Origin: Thiohalocapsa sp.
Lineage (GTDB): Bacteria; Pseudomonadota; Gammaproteobacteria; Chromatiales; Chromatiaceae
Direction of reading: 5' to 3'
Assembly: GCF_022340605.1 (NCBI RefSeq)
Contig: NZ_JAJDNQ010000143.1
Span: forward strand, 1-37,290
DNA: 37,290 bases
Shown here: positions 19,441 to 22,011 of the stretch, one piece after another
Layout: each line of letters starts with the position of its first letter
Position numbering within the stretch: position 1 is the first letter of the stretch
Program-made: the position numbers and the translations under genes
The notes under the pieces: model-generated
Databases searched by the model: none
What the model was told of the DNA's origin: nothing
Seen by the model: the letters and a program-made list of their open reading frames with translations, nothing else

Positions 19441-21825
19441 ATGCGAGTCCCTGACGGCGGCGGTACGGAGCCCAACTGGCGGCCCAACCTATCTGCCTTC
19501 CTGGCGGCCATGCGCGAGCCGCCGAGCTGGACCTTCGACGTCGACGGCTTTAGCCCCGGCATCGACAACGTGCACGTGGACGTGCACCTGAGCCCGCGCT
19601 TTCGCGAGCTGGCCGCCATCACGGTGCGCAAGCTGTTCGCCGAGGAGATGGCGGCGGCTATCGGCCAGAGCGCCCCGCAACTGGTGGGCGCCGAGGACCT
19701 GGAGCGGTTCCGGCGCCACTACGCGAACCTCTTCGAGCAGACCCTGGAGCGCAACGCCTCGGCACAGTCGGCGGAAGTGCTCGCCCTGTTGCAGCTGGCG
19801 CTGATGCGCCACCTGCTGGAGCTAGTGTTGCGCGAGCAGCGCAACCAGCTCGAAGAATGCCAGCGAGCTGGCCAGCAGTCCCTGGCGGCCGGCACCGGGC
19901 GCAGCCTCGCGCTGCACGAGAAGCTGGTGCTGCTCAAGCGCCACGGCGCCAGCATCAACCGCCGCGTGCTCAAGGTCCTGTTCCGACAGCTACGCAAGCT
20001 GGAGTCGGGCCAGCTCGGCAAACTCCGCGCGGCGGTCAGCACCGACGCCTGGCCCCTGCCCACCCAGGCGCTGTTCAACCCAGTGCTACTGGCGACCGAT
20101 CCCGGCGATGCCACGGAGCTGGCGCAGGACTATCTCATCGCCGCGCTCGGCGACGGCGGCGACGGCAATTGGCTGCGGCTCGCCAATCAGGCGGTGCTAT
20201 CCACCCTGGTCGACTACCTGCCCGAGTACGGCCGCCGGCAGGTGCTCGGCGACCTGACACCGCAGCAGCTCGCCGAGCGCCCGCGCGAGCGCACCGACCA
20301 GGGCGTGCTGCGCGGCTTCCTCGCCACCGAACTGCTGCTGAGCGGCTTCATGTCCCCCGAGGAATACCACGAGGGCCGCACCTGCTGGATCGACGAGCCC
20401 GCCAACATGCGCCGCCTGCTGCAGGTGCCGGACGCCGACGCCGGCAGCGGCGACTCGTCCATGCTGCTGGCACCGGTGCAGTGGAATTCCACCCGCTGGC
20501 TCGGCTTCCGGCGCGGACTGCGCGAGCGCCTGCACCTGCGGCTGCTGCACGCCGGGTTCGTCGATCGGCTCGTGCTCTGCTACTGGATGCCAGCGCTGCG
20601 CACCCAGCTCGGCGCGGCGGTACCGCTGGCGCTGGTGGCCGACTTCTGCGCCGCGCATCTCTCGCGCCGGCGCCTCGCCGAGCGCCTGGCCGCGCTGGAG
20701 ACCGAGGTGGAGCGCGCCGAGATCCTGCGCATGCTGGAGCGCTGCCAGGCGGCGTTGCGCCGGCTGGATGCCGAAGAGCGCGCCGGCTACCTGGACCGCT
20801 TCGTCGGCGACTTCCTGCACCTACGGCGCGATCTGAAGCTCGCCTACAAGACCTACCAGGCCATGGACCGGCTGCGGCTGGCGGAGAGCGGCGACGAGGT
20901 GACCCTGTCGCGGGCCAACGGCAGCCTGTGGGAATTCGTCAGCCGCGCAGAGAGCCTGCCGCAGGTGCGGCGCATGCGCGCCCACGCCGTGGTGAAGGCG
21001 GACATCCGCGGCTCCACCCGCATCACCGAGGAGTTGGTACGCCGCGGGCTGAATCCGGCCTCGCATTTCAGTCTCAATCTATTCGACCCGGTCAACCGGC
21101 TGCTGCCGGAGCTGGGCGCCGAGAAGCTCTTCGTCGAGGGCGATGCCGTAATCCTGGCGCTCTATGACTACGAGAGCGAACGCGGCAGCGAGGCCACCAC
21201 CGTCATGCCGGTGGCGCGCGCCTGCGGCCTCGCGCGCAGCATCCTGCGGGTGGTGGCGATGCAGAACGTGCTGAACCGCCGCCATGGCCTGCCGGAGCTC
21301 GAGCTGGGGCTCGGTGTCGCCTACTCGCCGCGGGAGCCGCACTTCCTCTATGACGACGGCCGGCGCATCATGATCTCCAGTGCCATCAACACCGCCGACC
21401 GCCTGTCCGCCTGCACCGCGGCGCTGCGCCATGCGGGCGTGCACCCGGCCGGCGGCGGGCATCGCGCGATGCTGGTGCGCCCCACCGGCGCCGCCGCCCT
21501 CGCGGCGGGCAACGACGACCTGCTCAGCTACAACATCAACGGCATCCTGCTAGAGCAACAGGCATTCTTCCAGTTGCAGCGCGAGATGTCGCTGCGACAG
21601 ACGCGGCTGTCCGTACCGGGCGACGATAACGGCCTCTACTTCGTCGGCCGCTACAGCGACCTCGCCGGGCGTAGCCGACGCCTAGCGGTGCGCTGCGCCC
21701 GGCTGCTGACCTGGGACGGGAGCCGGATGGGGACCGCGGACACCGACCATCGCCACTTTTTCGAGGTTATCGCCGACGAGTCGGTGATGGGGGGGTTGCG
21801 GCAAGAGTTTGGGCCGAAGCCCTAG
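19441..21825 (+). CDS. Large protein with divergent class III nucleotidyl cyclase domain
   Basis: A 794-residue soluble protein. The first 510 or so residues are helical, Arg/Leu/Glu-rich and not recognised. The last third resembles adenylate/guanylate cyclases: AVVKADIRGSTRITEELVRR carries the first metal-binding Asp (as in DIRGFT), EKLFVEGDAVILAL matches the second metal-Asp motif GDA, and SSAINTADRLSAC fits the NxxxR pattern of the catalytic Asn and Arg. Most key residues therefore seem present and activity is possible. An insertion lies between the GDA strand and LELGLGVAYSPREP. No transmembrane segment is seen. The ATG at 19441 was chosen over the GTG at 19414 because of AGGCGAG just before it. 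The stop codon lies in the CTAG of repeat copy D. The reaction product cannot be predicted. Confidence 0.72.
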   Translation: MRVPDGGGTEPNWRPNLSAFLAAMREPPSWTFDVDGFSPGIDNVHVDVHLSPRFRELAAITVRKLFAEEMAAAIGQSAPQLVGAEDLERFRRHYANLFEQTLERNASAQSAEVLALLQLALMRHLLELVLREQRNQLEECQRAGQQSLAAGTGRSLALHEKLVLLKRHGASINRRVLKVLFRQLRKLESGQLGKLRAAVSTDAWPLPTQALFNPVLLATDPGDATELAQDYLIAALGDGGDGNWLRLANQAVLSTLVDYLPEYGRRQVLGDLTPQQLAERPRERTDQGVLRGFLATELLLSGFMSPEEYHEGRTCWIDEPANMRRLLQVPDADAGSGDSSMLLAPVQWNSTRWLGFRRGLRERLHLRLLHAGFVDRLVLCYWMPALRTQLGAAVPLALVADFCAAHLSRRRLAERLAALETEVERAEILRMLERCQAALRRLDAEERAGYLDRFVGDFLHLRRDLKLAYKTYQAMDRLRLAESGDEVTLSRANGSLWEFVSRAESLPQVRRMRAHAVVKADIRGSTRITEELVRRGLNPASHFSLNLFDPVNRLLPELGAEKLFVEGDAVILALYDYESERGSEATTVMPVARACGLARSILRVVAMQNVLNRRHGLPELELGLGVAYSPREPHFLYDDGRRIMISSAINTADRLSACTAALRHAGVHPAGGGHRAMLVRPTGAAALAAGNDDLLSYNINGILLEQQAFFQLQREMSLRQTRLSVPGDDNGLYFVGRYSDLAGRSRRLAVRCARLLTWDGSRMGTADTDHRHFFEVIADESVMGGLRQEFGPKP

Positions 21826-22011
21826 TACCCCGTTTCAGCCAATTTTGCAGGACGCCAACCCGGGTGGGACCGGAGCGGAGAAACCAGGTCGAAGTCTCTG
21901 CTCGTTGTCGTTGTCGTGGTCATGATCGTGGTCATGATCGTGGTCGTGGTCGGATACTCGACAACGACAACGACAACGACAACGACAACGAAGGCAAAGT
22001 TAGGTGAAACG
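21822..22011 (+). repeat. Dispersed MITE-like repeat, copy D (best preserved)
   Basis: Begins with CTAGTACCC on the cyclase gene stop codon. Left inverted repeat CGTTTCAGCCAATTTTGC (21831-21848), right inverted repeat GCAAAGTTAGGTGAAACG (21994-22011): 15 of 18 positions match. Between them are a GTCGTT/GTGGTC/ATGATC hexamer run, the loop GGATACTC and five CGACAA units. Transcribed, the two runs could pair into a long stem with one mismatch per six bases. The inverted-repeat-bounded element is 181 bp. Confidence 0.9.

Follow-up and report, generated by a model that had tools for sequence, protein, structure and literature searches.

Repeats anchored at stop codons of a Thiohalocapsa genome are most likely miniature transposable elements that target CTAG

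The window analyzed here, a stretch of 37,290 nucleotides from Thiohalocapsa sp. (Chromatiaceae; positions 1 to 37,290 of contig NZ_JAJDNQ010000143.1, RefSeq assembly GCF_022340605.1), carries six short repeats, copies A to F, that start with CTAG, contain GTCGTN hexamers, and lie downstream of genes or on their stop codons. All six were found where the original prediction had placed them, and in A, B, D, and E the gene calls agreed that CTAG overlaps a TAG stop codon; the stop-codon anchoring is real. The repeats are miniature inverted-repeat transposable elements (MITEs), being short, free of a transposase gene, present in many copies, and bounded by inverted ends. We consider it most likely (probability about 0.86) that these MITEs target CTAG and that the anchoring arises from a target word rebuilt at TAG together with selection, with no special function needed. 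The family is ordinary in kind and informative in detail.

The repeats were followed through their own genome (G000; assembly 87% complete, 172 contigs). The left-end pattern CTAGTRCCCCGTTTCA, with up to 3 mismatches, gave 106 matches versus 23 for its reversed control, and the pattern of the end seen in E and F gave 57 versus 0, both more than expected by chance; copy D as a query gave 54 matches, some of which were pieces of one copy. Eighty stretches around matched places were combined with the window into 81 sequences covering 937,907 bp of 4.77 Mb. This sample is biased to well-kept copies: only the first places of the left-end search were taken, many left-end matches with 3 mismatches were left out, and the Q-type (E/F-type) places included were 38 of 57 (28/28 with at most one mismatch and 10/29 with two or three). 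A script based on codon usage called 816 genes (81% coding), and left ends (P and Q) and right ends (R and S) were called by profile hidden Markov models (HMMs). In these 938 kb, 190 ends were recognized (P 54, Q 40, R 61, and S 35), belonging to 112 elements. That total includes L014 and L056, probably one copy counted twice: the end of L014 and the start of L056 (contigs C11 and C127), both at contig ends, are identical over 60 of 60 flanking bases, and the two are probably a single Q copy inside which the assembly broke.

Two recognized ends were found in 78 of the 112 elements (PR 44, QS 25, QR 6, and PS 3). These elements are 83-216 bp long, too short for a transposase gene. The P/R and Q/S ends form terminal inverted repeats that run from the CTAG of either border toward the interior; each end starts with CTAG or a variant of it, mostly followed by TGC or TAC. 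The core is usually a hairpin of (GTCGTN)n, a short spacer, and (NACGAC)n; RNA folding of fragments from five copies gave z scores of -2.25 to -5.99. An additional class with V and W ends and no such core was also present in the sample. CTAG stands at both borders in 22 of the 78 two-ended elements, at one in 36, and at neither in 20. In the last group, the same word flanked both sides in four elements (TTAG, CTCG, CGAG, and CTGG; shuffle p = 0.017), and the summed distance between left and right words was likewise smaller than in shuffled pairs (p = 0.010). A duplicated target site was therefore found both as CTAG/CTAG pairs (22/78) and as identical non-CTAG pairs (4/20). Position by position, the departures of the border words did not separate a duplication of TA from one of CTAG. 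No direct repeat beyond CTAG was found in the 44 P-R elements; in Q-S elements, two of five registers beyond CTAG exceeded shuffles by ~2.4 sd, for which we offer no explanation.

We next consider the position of the elements relative to stop codons. Exactly on an in-frame TAG stop lay 43 of the 190 ends, in 42 of the 112 elements; four of these 42 read NTAG, not CTAG, at the stop. An in-frame TAG cannot occur inside a gene, and an element on a C-TAG stop therefore marks a stop that existed before it. The six window copies do share one orientation relative to the gene, as the original prediction had reported, but the rule does not extend to the genome: P/Q ends lay on stops in 26 of 94 cases and R/S ends in 17 of 96 (binomial p = 0.22). 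The same was seen by class (P 14 versus R 13, p = 1.0; Q 12 versus S 4, p = 0.077) and in tandem regions, where 23 elements pointed in one direction and 17 in the other (p = 0.43).

These features can be accounted for as follows. An IS630/Tc1-mariner-type DDE transposase, acting in trans, would cut the MITE at its terminal inverted repeats (TGC... inside CTAG). Insertion at CTAG would duplicate the target, either its central TA or all four bases, and this duplication would restore CTAG at both borders. When the target is a stop reading ...C TAG, frame and stop would be unchanged in either orientation. Selection would remove insertions at CTAGs inside genes, and the survivors would pile up at TAG stops, between convergent genes, and in the intergenic space 3' of genes. 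Since a CTAG rebuilt on insertion leaves the gene intact, many copies would be expected exactly at gene ends.

The occupancy of CTAG sites is consistent with this scheme. Every intact CTAG lying outside the interior of an element was assigned to a class by position; for occupied sites, only the outer side was used, which, with two borders per element, over-fills the non-stop bins. Among all sites, 39 stop CTAGs were occupied and 50 free, compared with 1 occupied and 119 free inside genes; without tandem CTAGs, the counts were 36 and 46 at stops and 0 and 111 inside genes. Elements are thus nearly absent from genic CTAGs. Isolated CTAGs that follow a stop at a distance of 0-30 bp were filled much like the stops themselves (9 occupied, 17 free; p = 0.50), and the occupied share was lower at 31-100 bp (9 and 28, p = 0.044) and at 101-300 bp (6 and 52, p = 1e-5); beyond 300 bp, 5 were occupied and 20 free. 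The two-ended elements lay in 25 convergent, 40 tandem, 6 divergent, and 7 other contexts, compared with 74 convergent, 289 tandem, and 97 divergent element-free intergenic regions of at least 40 bp (convergent versus divergent, p = 1.4e-4). In divergent regions, 3 of 55 non-stop CTAGs were occupied, counting elements that could be placed between two called genes. An excess of RUP, SPRITE, and insertion sequences (ISs) between convergent pneumococcal genes has been described in a paper whose authors, in its available text, infer that 3' regions tolerate insertions (PMC3049150).

For the Q/S class, candidate autonomous partners were found. In two relatives (G126 and G165), the Q-type end belongs to an IS of 1,331 and 1,330 bp, respectively, with CTAG at both borders, and the transposases match DDE_3 (E = 6.8e-24 and 5e-26). 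The G165 protein as a query matched 8 of 10 genomes of the genus, the best being G008 and G005 at 73% identity; the match in G005 is an open frame of 428 codons, G006 has a copy with one TGA, and G007 gave no match. Paired CTAG borders surround the IS in G005 (1,331 bp) and G006 (1,329 bp); matching borders were not found in the scanned stretches of G004 and G008 or in the first of G006. At their best match to eight IS630-type ends, Q, S, V, and W differ at 3, 6, 9, and 7 of 30 positions, respectively, and none of 20,000 shuffles did as well. The likeness of G126 and G165 to Q is partly a product of selection, these two having been found via the Q pattern; the G005 end, found via the protein, differs from Q at 5/30 and from S at 6/30 positions. 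Judged by their ends, the Q, S, V, and W classes appear to be MITEs derived from the IS630 family, and the autonomous partner of Q/S is probably an IS630/Tc1-type IS of ~1,330 bp carried by congeners and relatives. IS630 reportedly prefers the TA in CTAG, to go by the title of a 1991 paper by Tenzen and Ohtsubo. The own genome holds two other DDE_3 genes, and no matching CTAG ends were seen at their loci. A helper of the IS5 type was also considered and rejected: a PF01609 search of G000, G001, and G003 gave three matches in G000, the strongest of which (L140) lies ~440 bp from an element, outside the elements, and has no matching ends of its own.

The P-R class, the larger one, cannot be filed under IS630, since its ends lack a clear likeness to IS630 ends; for T and U, two further end types, 512 and 15,615 of 20,000 shuffles, respectively, matched IS630 ends as well as they did. 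An IS1595-type transposase, instead of an IS630-type one, might move the P-R class; we regard this as very unlikely. The idea comes from an element in G088 (L322) whose P/R-like ends, each matching P at 22 of 27 positions, enclose a DDE_Tnp_IS1595 gene (E = 8.1e-30). That gene, however, belongs to an internal unit that has an inverted repeat of its own (19 nt, 95%) and is bordered by a 7-bp direct repeat, as in IS1016-type ISs. Direct repeats of 7-9 bp are described for the IS1016-type family in the available text of PMC12561309, and a MITE derived from IS1595/IS1016 would be expected to carry them; the P-R elements show no repeat beyond CTAG, as given above. No IS1595-type IS with P/R as its outermost ends was found among the loci inspected. 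L322 was therefore dropped as a P/R helper; the most plausible reading is a P/R-type MITE into which an IS has inserted, the IS1016-like IS with the IS1595 domain occupying L322:1611-2348.

Several observations weigh against CTAG targeting with selection as a full account. (i) Position by position, the match between left and right non-CTAG words is weak (p = 0.047, 0.042, 0.17, and 0.32). (ii) Six of the 190 ends lie inside called genes, one of them at an intact CTAG. (iii) CTAGs with only gene starts as neighbors are not avoided, 29 of 89 being occupied and 60 free in a bin that counts one side for occupied sites and both sides for free ones. (iv) Downstream of the CTAG stop at site B, the congener G003 differs from the window, and its site is thus not a base-exact empty one. 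(v) No helper of the P/R class was found in the inspected loci of P/R-carrying relatives, and P and R differ from IS630 ends at 17/30 and 14/30 positions, with 8,464 and 1,054 of 20,000 shuffles as good. (vi) The G165-type transposase has no match in G000, in an assembly of the completeness given above. (vii) Among elements placeable between two called genes, stop CTAGs in convergent regions were occupied more often than others (17/31 versus 9/40, p = 0.007), an excess not readily expected from selection against gene disruption alone.

The last point bears on whether the transposase complex favors sites of transcription or translation termination in addition to CTAG. With one count per element (38 at stops versus 42 elsewhere, against 50 and 215 free sites), stop CTAGs were occupied more than other intergenic CTAGs by an odds ratio of 3.9 (p = 9e-7), and by 3.0 (p = 2e-4) when the free sites were restricted to the 38 stops and 125 others lying >1 kb away from elements; tandem regions showed the same tendency (17/51 versus 22/118, p = 0.047), and the ratios by context were 4.2 and 2.2. 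These ratios are inflated, because the end on a stop must stay TAG, whereas an intergenic border is free to decay, and 32 of the 112 elements have no CTAG at a recognized end. When the non-CTAG elements were added, the counts became 17/31 versus 14/45 in convergent and 17/51 versus 32/128 in tandem regions. Isolated CTAGs within 30 bp of a stop are filled similarly to the stops (9/26 versus 36/82, p = 0.50). Other genomes disagree with each other on the preference: in G172, of another genus (15 stretches), 7 of 33 ends lay on stops, none lay inside genes, and the free CTAGs comprised 1 at a stop, 10 intergenic, and 28 genic, whereas in G003 (20 stretches), 3 of 41 ends lay on stops, 2 lay inside genes, and 8 stop, 35 intergenic, and 22 genic CTAGs were free. 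Taken together, we regard dedicated targeting of stops or 3' ends as quite improbable, with a possible residual preference for stop CTAGs beyond survival bias. The original prediction had also considered an element that targets CTAG at stop codons; CTAG as the target stands, and the stops look like one class of harmless CTAG. It had further expected a fixed orientation and an excess at stops. Orientation was not kept genome-wide, whereas the overlap with stops still exceeds that at other intergenic CTAGs.

We then weighed a functional 3'-untranslated region (3'-UTR) element, the other possibility raised originally, in which a hairpin kept by selection ends transcripts or protects mRNA 3' ends. 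The strong hairpins predicted in all five folded fragments (z from -2.3 to -6.0) and the excess of elements near gene 3' ends and in convergent regions would fit such a role, but the inverted hexamer tracts of the core would fold regardless, and 6 of the 78 elements are flanked by divergent genes. In addition, the gene is faced by either end (26 versus 17), and no terminator-like site was found at D, the sole copy scanned, where an intrinsic terminator would have a stem-loop with a U-run after it. The orthologous genes of congeners at sites B, C, and D also end without the element. In G003, the ortholog of the B gene ends in GACTAG with no element, and the other eight aligned relatives end in TGA; at site C, the element is missing in nine aligned relatives and the G003 gene likewise ends in CTAG, and at site D, it is missing in three (sites C and D compared by eye). 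A retained 3'-UTR function is accordingly highly improbable, and the preferred reading remains that of CTAG-targeting MITEs.

The ends were also sought in other genomes. A search of 194 family genomes with the Q end matched 10, the own genome included; those with multiple copies mostly have a variant of their own, one variant being shared by G172 and G185, and Thiohalocapsa sp. ML1 (NZ_JABX01000065.1) was the sole exact match among named genomes. By eye, the ML1 contig is the same in sequence as the Q-end locus of G001, a genome of the window's genus, in keeping with a Thiohalocapsa-like purple sulfur bacterium as host. The end-R pattern matched 2 of 56 genomes, again including the own one. 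With looser patterns, P/R-like ends were found in other genera, 59 forward and 59 reverse in G142 and 10 and 13 in G027, with 4 in G088 and 3 in G121. All 13 copies retrieved from G142 (L295-L307) lie within 200 bp of a contig end, as do 6 of the 8 loci retrieved from G027 (L312-L335); high-copy P/R-like repeats probably break these two assemblies.

In the window, the six copies do not form the single family that was first proposed: the left ends of B, C, and D are P-type, that of A is P-like and decayed, and those of E and F are Q-type. Several of the limits first assigned were also wrong, since CTAG-type words and inverted ends occur at both borders, so that A extends to 7469, C to 16048, D to 22020, and E to 28336, and B begins at 12929. 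In copy A (7316-7469, plus strand), the decayed left end coincides with the TAG stop (7317-7319) of the gene before it; this end falls below the HMM threshold (~8/27 mismatches to P by eye), and the copy is excluded from the 112 elements. On its right side, CTAG recurs at 7466-7469 with a T-type end. Copy B (12929-13107, minus strand) is a P-R element whose CTAG at 13104-13107 coincides with the stop of gene 13104-13601, also on the minus strand. Its right end reads CGAG and is common to a V-type end, the junction at 12929-12932 being shared with a V-W-type element at 12788-12932 (no strand assigned) that has IS630-like ends and no hexamer core; the far W end of that element was identified by eye and is absent from the computed pair list. 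Copy C (15856-16048, plus strand) is a P-R element with its CTAG 10 bases past the stop at 15845, rather than 11; its right end, CGAG, is common to a second core-less V-W-type element with IS630-like ends (16045-16177, no strand assigned). Copies B and C are thus chained insertions, each with a V-W element. Copy D (21822-22020, plus strand), also P-R, has its CTAG at 21822-21825 as the stop of gene 19441-21825 and ends in CCAG. Copy E (28189-28336, plus strand) is a Q-S element whose CTAG at 28189-28192 is the stop of gene 27536-28192 and whose right end has decayed to GTAC. Copy F (34441-34549, minus strand) has a Q-type end at 34549, 141 bases past the nearest called stop instead of 140, and no partner end was recognized. 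Two other repeats were noted in the window: that at 18361-18545 recurs many times in the own genome, and that at 16175-16257 recurs in the congener G008.

Shared borders and mixed ends were also seen across the sample. A single CTAG-type word serves as the border of two elements at nine junctions (among 230 ends), and elements therefore insert into each other's borders. The T-type end (CTAGCGAGGCGCTGCCTCAGACC) was found 11 times and the U-type end (CTAGATTGCTTGACGGC) five times; the places of these two types include 7466-7469 of the window (T-type), L022, L027, L039, and L070. Hybrids with one IS630-type and one P/R-class end comprise the QR elements in L014, L017, L020, L021, L066, and L071 and the PS elements in L020, L072, and L083. 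These 6 QR and 3 PS hybrids suggest cross-recognition of ends or exchange through the shared core. A composite reading, in which the CTAG stop is a safe harbor, insertion is biased to termination sites, and several classes obey the CTAG rule and swap halves, is unlikely as a whole. If it held, a high-copy parasite could multiply in a genome densely packed with genes and leave them unbroken, since the duplication rebuilds the stop, and the IS630-type Q/S/V/W classes and P/R, T, and U would share the CTAG rule and swap halves via the hexamer hairpin core. More generally, a striking link between repeats and gene ends can come from target choice plus selection, and other "gene-end" repeats can be tested for this in a simple way. 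One genome holds both free and occupied CTAG stops, which makes the family a countable system for insertion bias of MITEs; it is also suited to the study of end exchange between MITE classes in purple sulfur bacteria.

Finally, we compared the family with known systems. No description of it was found, at the level of titles and the first parts of abstracts, in the literature listed on MITEs in Chromatiaceae, transposons and repeats in Thiohalocapsa, MITEs at stop codons or CTAG, IS630 and CTAG, IS630 MITEs, RUP, and MITEs of IS1595/IS1016; a paper on a Thiohalocapsa genome gives counts for IS630 and further ISs, and the term MITE has 0 occurrences in its available text (PMC9296519). The original statement that no named family has such anchoring overlooked IS630-type MITEs such as RUP. 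RUP with IS630-Spn1 is the closest known system by kind and description, a comparison that covers properties and not sequences. RUP is a non-coding MITE of 107 bp whose ends resemble those of an IS630-family IS; its targets contain TA, and it is over-represented between convergent genes (PMC2229807, PMC3049150, from their available text). The present family differs from RUP in its host, its palindromic CTAG target, its several end types, its hexamer core, its hybrids, and the 42 of 112 copies exactly on a TAG stop. BOX of Streptococcus pneumoniae forms the extreme 3' end and stop of a gene in 36 cases, according to the accessible part of PMC3049150; BOX encodes the stop, whereas the present elements target a stop that the gene already has, which is rebuilt on insertion. 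MITEPsy1 of Pseudomonas syringae, a 100-nt MITE, inserts at CTAG or YTAA and duplicates its target, but its authors tie it to ISPsy2 (IS5) (PMC3189936, available text), while the Q/S ends here match IS630-type ISs. IS630 and ISY100, of the Tc1/mariner/IS630 family, have a single gene for a DDE transposase and a TA target (PMC2170065, in the portion available); the window elements, by contrast, carry no gene.

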